50,962 bases of DNA, taken from contig JAEUMK010000023.1 of assembly GCA_016792565.1 (NCBI GenBank), positions 1-50,962 on the forward strand, given 5' to 3'. The notes under the pieces are model-generated. The model was given only the letters and a program-made list of their open reading frames with translations. It was not told the DNA's origin and made no database searches. The DNA comes from Alphaproteobacteria bacterium (GTDB taxonomy: Bacteria; Pseudomonadota; Alphaproteobacteria; Micropepsales; Micropepsaceae). This document shows, piece after piece, positions 8,998 to 13,420 of the stretch (positions are counted from its first letter, which is position 1; every line of letters begins with the position of its first letter). The translations under genes were made by a program, and so were the position numbers.

Positions 8998-9801
8998 TCA
9001 GGTCTTGGCGGGTTCGGGTTTGGCGGGGGCGCCGCGGGCTTTTTCCATGCCCCTCACCAGCAGGATCGAGATTTCGTAGAGCGCGAGGACCGGGATCGCC
9101 AGGGCGAACTGGCTGAGCATGTCGGGCGGGGTGAGGACGCCCGCGACGACGAAGACCGCGACGATGGCGTAGCGGCGGCCCCTGGAGAGCTGTTCGGCGG
9201 TGATGAAGCCGACGCGGGCCAGCAGGGTCAGCGCCACCGGCAGCTGGAAGCAGATGCCGAAGGCGAACATCAGCGCCATGGTCAGGCCGAAATACTCCGA
9301 GACGCGCGCCTCGAGCTGGATCGGCATCTGGCCAGGTCCCGCCGGGGCCTGGAAGCTGAGCAGGAAGCCGAGCGCCATCGGCATGATGAGGTAGAGCACC
9401 AGGGCCGCGCCGGTGATGAAGAGGACCGGGGTCGCGATGAGATACGGCAGGAAGGCGCCGCGCTCGTTGCGATAGAGGCCGGGCGCGACGAACATCCAGA
9501 GCTGCGTCGCCAGCACCGGGAACGAAATGCAGAGGCCGCCCCAGGCCGACAACTGGAGATAGGTGACGAACGTCTCCTGCGGGCTGGTGGCGATCAGCCG
9601 CTGGTTCGGCTGGCCCTCCAGCGCGTGATAGAGCGGCTGGGCGAGGAACGCATAGAGCTGCTGGGCGAAGAAGTAACAGACCAGGAAGCCGACGAAGAAC
9701 GCGATGACCGCGTAGAAAAGCCGTCGCCGCAGCTCGATCAGGTGTTCGAGCAGAGGCGCGCGCGTCGCCTCGATCTCGGCCTCGTCGCGGTCCGTCGTCA
9801 T
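8998..9801 (-). CDS. tatC: TatC, twin-arginine translocase subunit
   Basis: A 267-residue inner-membrane protein with six hydrophobic segments. It is the receptor subunit that binds twin-arginine signal peptides for export of folded proteins. The family pattern is clear: PLLEHLIELRRRLFYAVIAF at the N-terminus, SPQETFVTYLQLSAWGG in the middle, and VLTPPDMLSQFALAIPVLALYE near the end. It overlaps tatB by four bases (ATGA). Confidence 0.97.
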   Translation of the reverse strand: MTTDRDEAEIEATRAPLLEHLIELRRRLFYAVIAFFVGFLVCYFFAQQLYAFLAQPLYHALEGQPNQRLIATSPQETFVTYLQLSAWGGLCISFPVLATQLWMFVAPGLYRNERGAFLPYLIATPVLFITGAALVLYLIMPMALGFLLSFQAPAGPGQMPIQLEARVSEYFGLTMALMFAFGICFQLPVALTLLARVGFITAEQLSRGRRYAIVAVFVVAGVLTPPDMLSQFALAIPVLALYEISILLVRGMEKARGAPAKPEPAKT

Positions 9802-10139
9802 GGCGCGGGCTTCGGTTCGGAAGCCGGCGGCAGGGGCAGCGGCGCGGGCGCCTCCAGCGCGACCATCTTGTCGGGCGGCGGCGTCGTGGTGGTGCGCGGA
9901 TCCATCTCGACGGGGGCGCGGAGCTCGCGCTTCATGGCGCCGAGGTCCTTGCGCAGGTCCTCAAGCTCGGCCTGGCGGATCATCTCGTCGACGCCGGACT
10001 GGAAGTGCGCCGCCATGCGCCGCGCCTTGCCGACCCACTGCCCCACCGTCTTCATCAGGCGCGGCAAGTCCTTGGGGCCGACGACGAGAATCGCGACCAC
10101 GGCAATGACGAGCAATTCGCTCCAGGCGAGATCGAACAT
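9798..10139 (-). CDS. tatB: TatB, twin-arginine translocase subunit
   Basis: A 113-residue protein with one N-terminal membrane helix (MFDLAWSELLVIAVVAILVVGP), the conserved GPKDLPRLMKTVGQWVGKARRMA amphipathic helix, and a polar Pro-rich tail. It forms the substrate-receptor complex with TatC. It lies between tatA (28-base gap) and tatC (four-base overlap) in the usual A-B-C order. Confidence 0.95.
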   Translation of the reverse strand: MFDLAWSELLVIAVVAILVVGPKDLPRLMKTVGQWVGKARRMAAHFQSGVDEMIRQAELEDLRKDLGAMKRELRAPVEMDPRTTTTPPPDKMVALEAPAPLPLPPASEPKPAP

Positions 10140-10167: not shown

Positions 10168-10380
10168 TCAGACCTTGGTCGCGTCGCTCTTGGCCGCGTC
10201 GGCGGCCGGGGTCTCGACCTGGCTGGTGACCTGCGGCTTGGGTTCGTCGGCCATGCCCTGGCGGAAATTCTTGATGCCCTTGGCGACGTCGCCCATCAGT
10301 TCGGAAATCTTGCCGCGGCCGAACAACACCATCACCAGAACGACGATGACGATGAGATGCCAGATGCTGAAAGCGCCCAT
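10168..10380 (-). CDS. tatA: TatA, twin-arginine translocase pore subunit
   Basis: A 70-residue protein with the classic TatA form: [24 protein letters not shown], then the amphipathic helix [18 protein letters not shown], then a short acidic/polar tail. It oligomerises to form the Tat pore. The start at 10380 is chosen over an ATG two codons upstream because AAGGAG sits eight bases before it. First gene of tatABC. Confidence 0.95.
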
Positions 10381-10464
10381 GCGCATCACTCCTTGAGGCG
10401 CAATCAAGGCTGCGCCGTTCGCGTCTATTTTAGGGGCCCCTGCGCGATGCCGCAATCGGCGTTA

Positions 10465-10490
10465 CGCCGGTCGCGCGACGGAGACCGGCG
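10465..10490 (-). other. stem-loop between the putative micropeptide and tatA
   Basis: An eight-base perfect stem (10465-10472 with 10483-10490) encloses a ten-base loop, 14 bases after the small reading frame at 10505-10567 stops. There is no T tract on either strand, so it is more likely an RNA stabiliser or processing site than a terminator. Confidence 0.35.
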
Positions 10491-10504: not shown

Positions 10505-10567
10505 TTACAGGAAGAACATCGTCAGCAACACAAAGGCGATCACCAGCCAGAATCTGAAGTCGTACAT
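10505..10567 (-). CDS. putative 20-residue single-span membrane peptide
   Basis: A small reading frame encoding MYDFRFWLVIAFVLLTMFFL followed by TAA. GGAG lies eight bases before the ATG (CTTGGAGCGCAGCGC), an ideal Shine-Dalgarno position. The product is almost all hydrophobic after residue 5 and would span the membrane once. It lies 109 bases downstream of the ABC ATPase gene and 124 bases upstream of tatA, on the same strand. I do not recognise a family. The evidence is only the ribosome binding site and the composition, so it could be chance, but the base composition drops from its GC-rich surroundings exactly over this frame. Confidence 0.5.
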   Translation of the reverse strand: MYDFRFWLVIAFVLLTMFFL

Positions 10568-10676
10568 GCGCTGCGCTCCAAGGGCGCCGCGATCCGCGCG
10601 CCCGTTCCGCCGTTCCGCATCCATTCCTGACAGCCGCCGCGCGCCGCCGCAACGCCCCTTGCCGGTCGTGCGCCGG

Positions 10677-11729
10677 TCAGGACGCTGGCGCTGCGGTATC
10701 GGCGAACACGAAGCCGCGACCCGATTTCAGGCGCACGGGCAGCGCATCCCCCGGGCGGACGGCGGCGGCGGCGTCGAACACCGCATCGAGGGCCGGGCCG
10801 CCGCCCGGCATCGCGCACTGAACGTGGAGCCCATCGGAGGCGATCTGCGCGGCGAGGACGTCGACGCTGGCCCCGCCCGCTCCGATCTCCAGATCGGACG
10901 GGCGGATGGCGACGAGCACCGCCTCGCCCTCGGCACGGCCGGAAGCGGCGACCGGGCCGAACGGCGTCGCAGCGCGGCCGCCCGCGATCCGGGCGGCGAC
11001 GCGGTTGACGGGCGAAAAGAAGGCGGCCGTCTCGAAGTCGGCCGGGGCGCCGAGCAGCGCGGCGGGCGGTCCGCTCTGCACGATGCGGCCGGCCCGCAGC
11101 AGGACGATGCGGTCGGCGCAGCGCAGCGCCTCGTCGGGATCGTGGGTGACCAAGAGGGTCGCCGCGCCCTGCCCCCTCAGCACCGCCAGGACGTCGCGCC
11201 GGACGCCGTCGCGCAGCCTGGCGTCGAGGCCCGAGAACGGCTCGTCGAGCAGCATGGCGCGGGGTTCGGGGGCGAGCGCCCGGGCGACGGCGAGGCGCTG
11301 CTGCTCGCCGCCTGAGAGCTGGTGCGGCCAGGCGTCGGCGTGCGCGGCAAGGCCGACCATGGCGAGCAGCGCGTCGGCGCGGGCGCGGGCCTCGGCCTTC
11401 GCCAGGCGGAAGAGGCCGAAGGTGACGTTGGCGCGGGCGGTCAGATGGGGAAAGAGCGCGAGATCCTGGAAGACGAGCCCCACCCGGCGCTTCTCGGGGG
11501 GGGCGAACACCCCGGCGGCATCGACGACTTCGCCGTCGATCGCCACTTCGCCGGATTCCGGCCGCTCGATGCCGGCGGCGATGCGCAGCGTGGTCGACTT
11601 GCCGGAGCCCGAGCCGCCGAGCAGGCAGACGACCTCGCCCGCCCCGACCTCGAGCGTGACGCCATCGACGACCGTGCGGCCGGCGAAGGACTTGGTGATG
11701 GCGCGCAGCGCCAGGACGGGGGCGTTCAT
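10677..11729 (-). CDS. Fbp/Pot-type ABC transporter ATP-binding protein (orphan)
   Basis: A 350-residue ATPase of the importer type used for iron(III), spermidine or similar solutes. Walker A is GGSGSGKSTTLR near residue 38, the signature LSGGEQQRLAVARALA near 135, Walker B AMLLDEPFSGLD near 160, and the H-loop LLVTHDPDEAL. A C-terminal TOBE-like region (about 250-345) is present. The closest general match by layout is FbpC. No permease or binding protein gene lies nearby, so its partner must be elsewhere. It interrupts the usual neighbourhood of scpB and tatA. Confidence 0.85.
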   Translation of the reverse strand: MNAPVLALRAITKSFAGRTVVDGVTLEVGAGEVVCLLGGSGSGKSTTLRIAAGIERPESGEVAIDGEVVDAAGVFAPPEKRRVGLVFQDLALFPHLTARANVTFGLFRLAKAEARARADALLAMVGLAAHADAWPHQLSGGEQQRLAVARALAPEPRAMLLDEPFSGLDARLRDGVRRDVLAVLRGQGAATLLVTHDPDEALRCADRIVLLRAGRIVQSGPPAALLGAPADFETAAFFSPVNRVAARIAGGRAATPFGPVAASGRAEGEAVLVAIRPSDLEIGAGGASVDVLAAQIASDGLHVQCAMPGGGPALDAVFDAAAAVRPGDALPVRLKSGRGFVFADTAAPAS

Positions 11730-11771: not shown

Positions 11772-12548
11772 TTAGGCGTCGTCGTCGGACGCCGTGGGGG
11801 CCAGCAGCTCGGCGATGTCGGCCTCGTCGAGCGGGTCCTCGTCAGGACCGAGGACGTCGGAGGGGCTGGGGACGATGAAGCCGGTCGGCACCGAGGAGTC
11901 GAGAAGGCCCGCGGCCTTCAGCTCATCCATGCCCGGCAGATCCGCCACCCGGTCGAGACCGAAATGCTGGAGGAAGGCCTCGGTGGTGCCGTAGGTGACC
12001 GGGCGTCCCGGGGTGCGGCGGCGGCCGCGCAACCTGACCCAGCCGATCTCCAGGAGGAGGTCGAGCGTGCCCTTGGAGACGCCGACGCCCCGGATCTCCT
12101 CGATCTCGGCGCGGGTGACCGGCTGGTGATAGGCGACGATCGCCAGGGTCTCGATGCCGGCGCGCGACAGGCGGCGCTGCTCGGTGGTCTCCTTGCGGAG
12201 CAAGAAGGCAAGATCGGAGGCCGTACGAAGCGCCCACTTTCCCGATATACGGACGAGGTTTACGCCGCGATGTTCATAACTTGCCTGAAGTTGGGCGAGC
12301 AGCGATCCGAGATCGGCGCCGTGCGGCAGACGGGCCGTCAACGTATCCTCGTCCAGCGGTTCGGCGGCGGCGAAGAGCAGGGCTTCGAGCATGCGCAGGT
12401 GCTGCACGGCGTCGGCGGCAGCCTCCCCGGCAGCCTCGTCCGAGACCTCGGCGTCGTCCGCCCCGGCGCCGTCGAGGGCCTCATCGTCACGGTCTGCGAG
12501 GGCATCGGTCGGTTCGGGCATCGGCACTGCGGCGGTGGCGCGGGTCAT
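11772..12548 (-). CDS. scpB: ScpB, segregation and condensation protein B
   Basis: A 258-residue partner of SMC and ScpA in the condensin complex that organises the chromosome. After an acidic N-terminal stretch of about 50 residues come two winged-helix domains, with LRMLEALLFAAAEPLDEDTLTARLP, then LSRAGIETLAIVAYHQPVTRAEIEEIRGV, GRRRTPGRPVTYGTTEAFLQHFGL and LPGMDELKAAGLLD. The ATG at 12548 is chosen because GGGAGG lies about ten bases upstream; longer in-frame starts would run through scpA. It follows scpA by 35 bases. Its C-terminal tail is also acidic. Confidence 0.95.
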   Translation of the reverse strand: MTRATAAVPMPEPTDALADRDDEALDGAGADDAEVSDEAAGEAAADAVQHLRMLEALLFAAAEPLDEDTLTARLPHGADLGSLLAQLQASYEHRGVNLVRISGKWALRTASDLAFLLRKETTEQRRLSRAGIETLAIVAYHQPVTRAEIEEIRGVGVSKGTLDLLLEIGWVRLRGRRRTPGRPVTYGTTEAFLQHFGLDRVADLPGMDELKAAGLLDSSVPTGFIVPSPSDVLGPDEDPLDEADIAELLAPTASDDDA

Positions 12549-12583
12549 GGGTTTCCCCTCCCTGCGGGCTAGGACGGCCCGCG

Positions 12584-13420
12584 TCAAGCGGGCTGGTGAT
12601 CGTTGGCGGCGTCGAGACGGGAGGCGCTGCGCAGGTAGATCGGCCCGAAGGCGTCGGCCTGGCGAAGCTGAAGTTTGCCGTCCTTGGCCATTTCGAGACT
12701 GGCCGAAAAGGTGCTCGCCAGCGCGCTGCGGCGCAGTTCGCGGAATTCCGGCAGGTCGGGCAGGAAGGCGTCGAGGCGGCTCCAGTCCATGGCAAGGCCG
12801 ATCATGCGCTCCAGCCGCTTGCGGGCCTCGTCGATGGCATAGACCGGGGCGCGCGGCATCGACAGCCGCACGCCCAGCGTGCGCTTGCGCTGGTCGGCAT
12901 AGGCGCGCAGCAGGTCGTAGGTGGTGTCGGCCCATTGCGGCAGCTTGACGATGCGGACGCCCTCGGGCTCGCCCCTGAAGAACACGTCGCGCCCCAGCCG
13001 GTCGCGCGCCATCAGCCGGCCGCCGGCCTCGCGCATCGCCTGGAGGCGCTGGAGGCGGAAAGCGAGCCGCGCCGCCATCTCCTCGCCCGAGGGCTCGCCA
13101 TTGGCCTTTTCCGGCTTGGGCAGCAGCAGGCGGGACTTGAGGTAGGCGAGCCACGAGGCCATGACCAGATAGTCGGCCGCGAGGTCGAGATCGGCCTTGG
13201 CGAGGTGGCCGATGAATTCGAGGTACTGGTCGACGAGGCGCAGGATGGAAATGCGCCTGAGATCGACCTTCTGCGAGCGGGCAAGCGTCAGGAGCAGGTC
13301 GAGCGGCCCCTCGAAGCCGTCGACATCGACGATGAACGCCTCGTTGGCGCCCGCGGCCGGCATGGTCAGTTCGAAGATCGGGTCTTCGCCCTGGACCTCG
13401 GCGTCGGGGGTGTCACTCAT
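12584..13420 (-). CDS. scpA: ScpA, segregation and condensation protein A (kleisin)
   Basis: A 278-residue kleisin subunit that bridges the SMC heads. It has the family's FIVDVDGFEGPLDLLLTLARSQKVDLRRISILRLVDQYLEFI at residues 28-70, the middle region ASWLAYLKSRLLLP, and the C-terminal winged-helix region with TFSASLEMAKDGKLQLRQADAFGPIYLR. It overlaps nagZ by four bases (ATGA), so translation is coupled, and scpB follows. Confidence 0.95.
   Translation of the reverse strand: MSDTPDAEVQGEDPIFELTMPAAGANEAFIVDVDGFEGPLDLLLTLARSQKVDLRRISILRLVDQYLEFIGHLAKADLDLAADYLVMASWLAYLKSRLLLPKPEKANGEPSGEEMAARLAFRLQRLQAMREAGGRLMARDRLGRDVFFRGEPEGVRIVKLPQWADTTYDLLRAYADQRKRTLGVRLSMPRAPVYAIDEARKRLERMIGLAMDWSRLDAFLPDLPEFRELRRSALASTFSASLEMAKDGKLQLRQADAFGPIYLRSASRLDAANDHQPA

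Follow-up and report, generated by a model that had tools for sequence, protein, structure and literature searches.

Upstream of tatA in the window (the whole stretch of 50,962 nucleotides that was analyzed), a minus-strand frame of 20 codons lies in a region that is well supported, by DNA comparison, as a truncated tandem duplicate of the tatA 5' end. On balance, and with some reservation, we favor reading the whole as a tandem duplicate of the start of tatA that persists as a still-open remnant without an essential role; the peptide itself is probably dispensable and possibly translated. The first-pass annotation had described a hydrophobic frame of 20 residues with a clean stop and a well-placed GGAG, located between an ABC ATPase gene and tatA on their strand. 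All of these elements are present, and the strand, which had been left unstated, is the minus strand. The frame (10567..10505) comprises an ATG start, 20 codons in all and TAA and encodes MYDFRFWLVIAFVLLTMFFL, while the opposite (plus) strand of 10505-10567 reads LQEEHRQQHKGDHQPESEVVH. The GGAG (10579..10576) lies 8 nt 5' of the ATG, and an in-frame upstream ATG at 10624 would extend the peptide to 39 aa. On the minus strand the gene order is ABC ATPase, micro-frame, tatA, tatB, tatC, serS and surE; 124 nt separate the micro-frame from tatA, and 187 nt its start from tatA. The features concerned are the following.

10677..11729, minus strand: ABC transporter ATPase gene, upstream of the duplicate (PF00005)
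10511..10676, minus strand: repeat copy 1, with promoter-like block, leader, ribosome-binding site and 20 codons (alignment score 75; z 14.0)
10624..10652, minus strand: degenerate copy of the tatA promoter-like block, TTGCGG (10652..10647), 17 nt, CAGGAA (10629..10624) (consensus likeness only)
10576..10579, minus strand: GGAG ribosome-binding site, spaced from the ATG as in tatA (sequence)
10505..10567, minus strand: micro-frame MYDFRFWLVIAFVLLTMFFL plus TAA, putative duplicate of the TatA transmembrane helix only (repeat with tatA; translation)
10465..10490, minus strand: stem-loop 3' of the stop codon, with 8-bp perfect arms 10490..10483 and 10472..10465 (folding)
10321..10481, minus strand: repeat copy 2, with the tatA promoter-like region, leader, ribosome-binding site and tatA codons 1-20 (alignment with copy 1)
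10427..10455, minus strand: tatA promoter-like block, TTGCGG (10455..10450), 17 nt, TAAAAT (10432..10427) (likeness; kept motif)
10168..10380, minus strand: tatA, putative parent of the duplicate (PF02416; NF001940 above its cut-off)
9798..10139, minus strand: tatB (PF02416 and position; named from gene order)
8998..9801, minus strand: tatC (PF00902)

None of the 25 NCBIfam models shown for the ABC ATPase reached its cut-off. In each of the five genomes of the genus that we compared, its gene is the immediate upstream neighbor of tatA, and it lies near tatA in some other members of the family; in one of the five (G004, loci L045 / L076) the match to the orthologue runs across one TGA, which may reflect a pseudogene, a match that extends beyond the real stop or an assembly error. 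Farther upstream, a minus-strand frame at 11772-13154 (460 codons from GTG) bears an ScpB domain confined to residues 255-408. Translation probably starts inside this frame, and the frame 12584-13420 that overlaps it may be part of another gene.

The first-pass claim that the frame is too unusual for chance was borne out when the 293-nt intergenic region was shuffled with its dinucleotide composition kept. In 1 of 5000 shuffles there was an ATG-initiated frame of 18-60 codons at least as hydrophobic as the micro-frame, and in 0 of 5000 when a ribosome site was also demanded; no other frame with both properties occurs on either strand of the window. The hydropathy of residues 6-20 is 2.76, compared with 3.1 for TatA, and an N-terminal transmembrane helix is predicted.

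The evidence on origin comes from a repeat in the DNA. Positions 10676..10511 align with 10481..10321 at a local score of 75, where shuffles average 24.5 and the best of 500 attains 38. Taken alone, the non-coding part of the repeat scores 46, a value reached by none of 500 shuffles. The repeat takes in the promoter-like block, the leader, GGAG-N8-ATG and the first 20 codons, and extends no farther than tatA nucleotide 60. GGAG-N8-ATG is identical in both copies in the window, and the micro-frame matches tatA codons 1-20 at 37 of 60 nt. A stop takes the place of tatA codon 21, in the window as well as in the corresponding copy of a relative, strain SO-S41. Any product would thus be the TatA membrane helix, lacking in both genomes the hinge glycine, which we take to be TatA residue 21, and the amphipathic helix. 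To gauge how common such repeats are, 50 tatA loci were taken, of which 39 were distinct once 11 duplicates had been dropped. Two of the 39 had a repeat at z above 7 and stood out as outliers, namely, the window (z 14.0) and SO-S41 (z 7.7), with locus L033 next at z 4.4. The L033 signal (genome G020) is a weaker non-coding repeat between 183 and 110 nt 5' of tatA, reached by 2 of 200 shuffles. A class-wide search with the first 20 residues of TatA matched 149 of 385 genomes and, among the matches listed, gave no second copy near tatA; this search misses copies that have diverged like that of the window, which it did not itself recover. The tandem repeat with the tatA 5' end and the 39-locus comparison together rule out a stand-alone, de novo frame.

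The genus sample consisted of the window genome (G000) and four relatives (G001 to G004), of which G003 is Alphaproteobacteria bacterium SO-S41 (AP024629.1), a cultured strain from forest soil (PMC8297455). When 61 genomes were searched with the window peptide at E values up to 10, two of them gave a match: the peptide itself and one weak match within a frame of 662 codons. Since such a direct search is too insensitive, the region upstream of tatA was compared instead. Across 30 loci, including those of the five genus genomes, a TatA-like hydrophobic micro-frame was found in two, the window and SO-S41. Conservation at the same position, which the first-pass annotation had proposed as a check in relatives, was therefore partial, extending to one of the four same-genus relatives and not found in the other three. 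The SO-S41 frame, MNSFSLWHGLIILLLVMFLL, is 20 codons long and starts 173 nt before tatA. In G001, G002 and G004 the scan found no TatA-like micro-frame, and in the alignment the tail of the ABC gene runs straight into the tatA promoter-like block. Six other loci of the 30 (L012, L026, L031, L033, L034 and L038) have frames with a hydrophobic stretch; judged by eye, none resembles TatA, and they were set aside. In a plasmid search, the sole match was one 78% stretch in Shinella (query positions 369-461).

The SO-S41 copy has lost the promoter-like block and the GGAG, and its micro-frame begins 10 nt after the ABC stop codon. It retains, 3' of the micro-frame and in another frame, RRGFVFSAL followed by a stop (read by eye), a second ABC-gene tail. 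This tail scores 47 against the ABC tail of G001 (best of 500 shuffles, 33) and shows no likeness to the present ABC tail of SO-S41 itself (17, versus a shuffle mean of 17.9). The corresponding stretch of the window yielded no detectable second tail (score 17; shuffle mean, 20.3). A second tail is what would be left as a relic if the junction between the ABC tail and the tatA start had been duplicated.

At the residue level the two copies differ in how plainly they resemble TatA. The SO-S41 peptide is identical to its own TatA at 11 of 20 residues (42 of 60 nt), with an alignment score reached by none of 100,000 shuffled peptides. Searched against 96 genomes of the family, it gave 22 non-self matches, of which 21 were TatA N-termini (14 coinciding with independently located tatA genes and seven recognized as TatA separately) and one lay inside a 737-codon frame in G100. 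It also matched the start of the TatA model NF002813 (E 0.0013; 18.9 bits, below the cut-off of 83); a Pfam match to SecD-TM1 (E 0.23, below cut-off) was taken as chance. The hydropathy of its residues 6-20 is 2.67. The window peptide shares 7 of 20 residues with its own TatA, and 0.25% of shuffled peptides score as high. Its score of 31 is tied by an unrelated frame at one other of the 39 loci (L098), and the residue-level scan thus cannot separate it from a chance frame. It matched nothing in Pfam, even at E values up to 10, or in NCBIfam, TatA profiles included. Residue-level likeness alone is therefore insufficient to establish that the window peptide descends from TatA, and the case for such descent rests on the DNA repeat.

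We propose that an ancestor shared by the window bacterium and SO-S41 underwent a tandem duplication of the stretch where the ABC ATPase gene adjoins tatA. The copied block would have run from upstream of the tatA promoter-like region through tatA codon 20, and the upstream copy would for this reason start as tatA does, with a ribosome-binding site, an ATG and a membrane helix; stopping at residue 21, it would encode a 20-residue TatA helix with neither hinge nor amphipathic helix. Transcription of the copy may arise from read-through of the ABC gene or, at a low level, from its degenerate promoter copy, and the peptide may then be translated, as the GGAG-N8-ATG of the window copy suggests, and inserted into the membrane. 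It could not replace TatA, because the amphipathic helix is missing, and the copy would have drifted in sequence yet stayed hydrophobic. At eight sites the two peptides share a derived state that neither tatA gene has, consistent with a single ancestral duplication. The concatenated gene tree groups G000 with G003 at 75%, while the tatC and scpB trees differ. As the gene trees conflict over which of SO-S41 and G001 is closer to the window genome, a loss in G001 is possible, and on the weakly resolved five-genome tree an older event followed by such a loss is indistinguishable from an event in the ancestor of G000 and G003.

The first-pass annotation had also taken the sharp fall in GC over the frame as a sign of selection. 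The fall itself was measured (0.46 in the micro-frame, versus 0.78 upstream, 0.686 downstream and 0.685 in the whole window), but GC dips comparably over tatA codons 1-20 (0.517), so that low GC alone is no evidence of selection. Between the window and SO-S41 peptides, dN is 0.47 and dS is 0.48, giving a dN/dS of about 1 and no sign of purifying selection on residues; in six neighboring genes dN is 0.08-0.21. In power simulations with 20 codons, such a ratio arose in about 1% or less of cases if the true ratio was 0.2 or lower, in 13% at 0.5 and in 41% at 1.0, which makes strong constraint on the residues unlikely; weak constraint on hydrophobicity is possible. When neutral decay was simulated, about 6-8% of runs ended with an open frame in the two lineages, and about 0.1-0.4% with open frames that were also no less hydrophobic than the real ones; the model had no indels, an inferred ancestral sequence and a hydrophobicity threshold set after the data had been seen. 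This low joint probability hints at some selection and, like the good ribosome-binding site of the window copy, counts against a mere remnant. Taken together, the dN/dS of about 1 and the absence of the frame from three of the five genus genomes argue for a dispensable copy.

The hint of selection also counts for a second reading, to which we give tentative weight, clearly below even chances. The peptide would act as a functional decoy of the TatA helix that inserts into the membrane and either pairs with the TatC TM5/TM6 site used by TatA and TatB or joins TatA clusters; with no amphipathic helix of its own, it would thereby reduce or adjust Tat activity. Both genomes have exactly the helix-only length and a hydrophobic frame that has stayed open, with the joint neutral probability given above. 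In PMC5201420, residue 8 of TatA is described as normally polar, as binding the TatC polar cluster and as mediating binding at the TatC TM5/TM6 site. The SO-S41 copy keeps W7-H8, with a polar histidine; the window copy, against this reading, has leucine at position 8. The same paper describes TatA oligomers that form without residue 8, so that an interaction with TatA only would remain compatible with Leu8. The dN/dS of about 1 and the three genus genomes in which no such frame was found also speak against a decoy. The specific form in which the peptide, a naturally shortened TatA born by tandem duplication, competes as a bare 20-residue helix with TatA or TatB at the translocase, we regard as doubtful.

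Regulation of tatA or of the ABC ATPase, which the first-pass annotation had suggested, was supported by none of the tests. A leader peptide or cis-regulator of tatA is very improbable. The micro-frame does lie upstream of tatA on its strand, but the tatA promoter-like block TTGCGG-N17-TAAAAT sits 3' of it, so that tatA could be transcribed without it, and three relatives manage without the micro-frame. The TTGCGGC of this block is aligned in all five genus genomes; a stricter promoter scan did not call the block (10427..10455). The stem-loop noted after the frame exists but is unexceptional (z -0.43; 59 of 200 shuffles fold equally well or better). A terminator scan found no terminator-like site there and an Rfam search no match, and both readings, terminator and leader, were dropped. 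A small partner of the ABC ATPase is similarly hard to credit: in SO-S41 the 10-nt distance from the ABC stop is near enough for coupled translation, but the peptide derives its sequence from tatA, not from transporter parts, and G001, G002 and G004 have the ABC gene beside tatA without the peptide. A chance frame in non-coding DNA, for which one could cite its mere 20 codons and the weak residue-level likeness of the window peptide to TatA, is scarcely credible given the intergenic shuffles, a repeat with tatA far outside its own shuffles and the 39-locus comparison.

The favored reading, a still-open remnant of a tandem duplication, would mean that a promoter-like stretch, a ribosome site and a membrane helix were copied from a neighbor in one step, a route to the birth of short membrane-peptide genes. 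If the peptide is translated, it offers a natural test of the TatA helix alone at the translocase, and if it competes there, it would modulate the export of folded proteins in a dominant manner. If it is a remnant only, it carries a caution, namely, that a hydrophobic frame with a good ribosome-binding site and low GC is the signature of a partial copy of a membrane-protein gene.

Compared with TatA (PF02416), the peptide copies residues 1-20, the membrane helix, with the same ribosome-binding-site spacing; it ends before residue 21, without the hinge glycine or the amphipathic helix, and in the window it also lacks the polar residue 8. According to PMC13186574, the function of TatA and TatB requires both the membrane anchor and the amphipathic helix. 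Tandem tatA genes are already known, as in Aquifex aeolicus, whose tatA1 and tatA2 represent extra TatA copies; according to PMC1550398, these tandem copies have 50 residues in common and can sustain Tat function in Escherichia coli, whereas the window copy is helix-only. Campylobacter jejuni tatA1/tatA2 and enterobacterial TatE are likewise reported as additional copies of TatA. We found no report of a helix-only tatA duplicate in the open-licence PMC literature. The closest likeness in form is to the small single-helix membrane proteins of bacteria, which, like this peptide, consist of one hydrophobic helix of about 20 residues and are easily missed in annotation; the present peptide, predicted from sequence, differs from them in that its source is a recognizable partial duplication of the neighboring gene.
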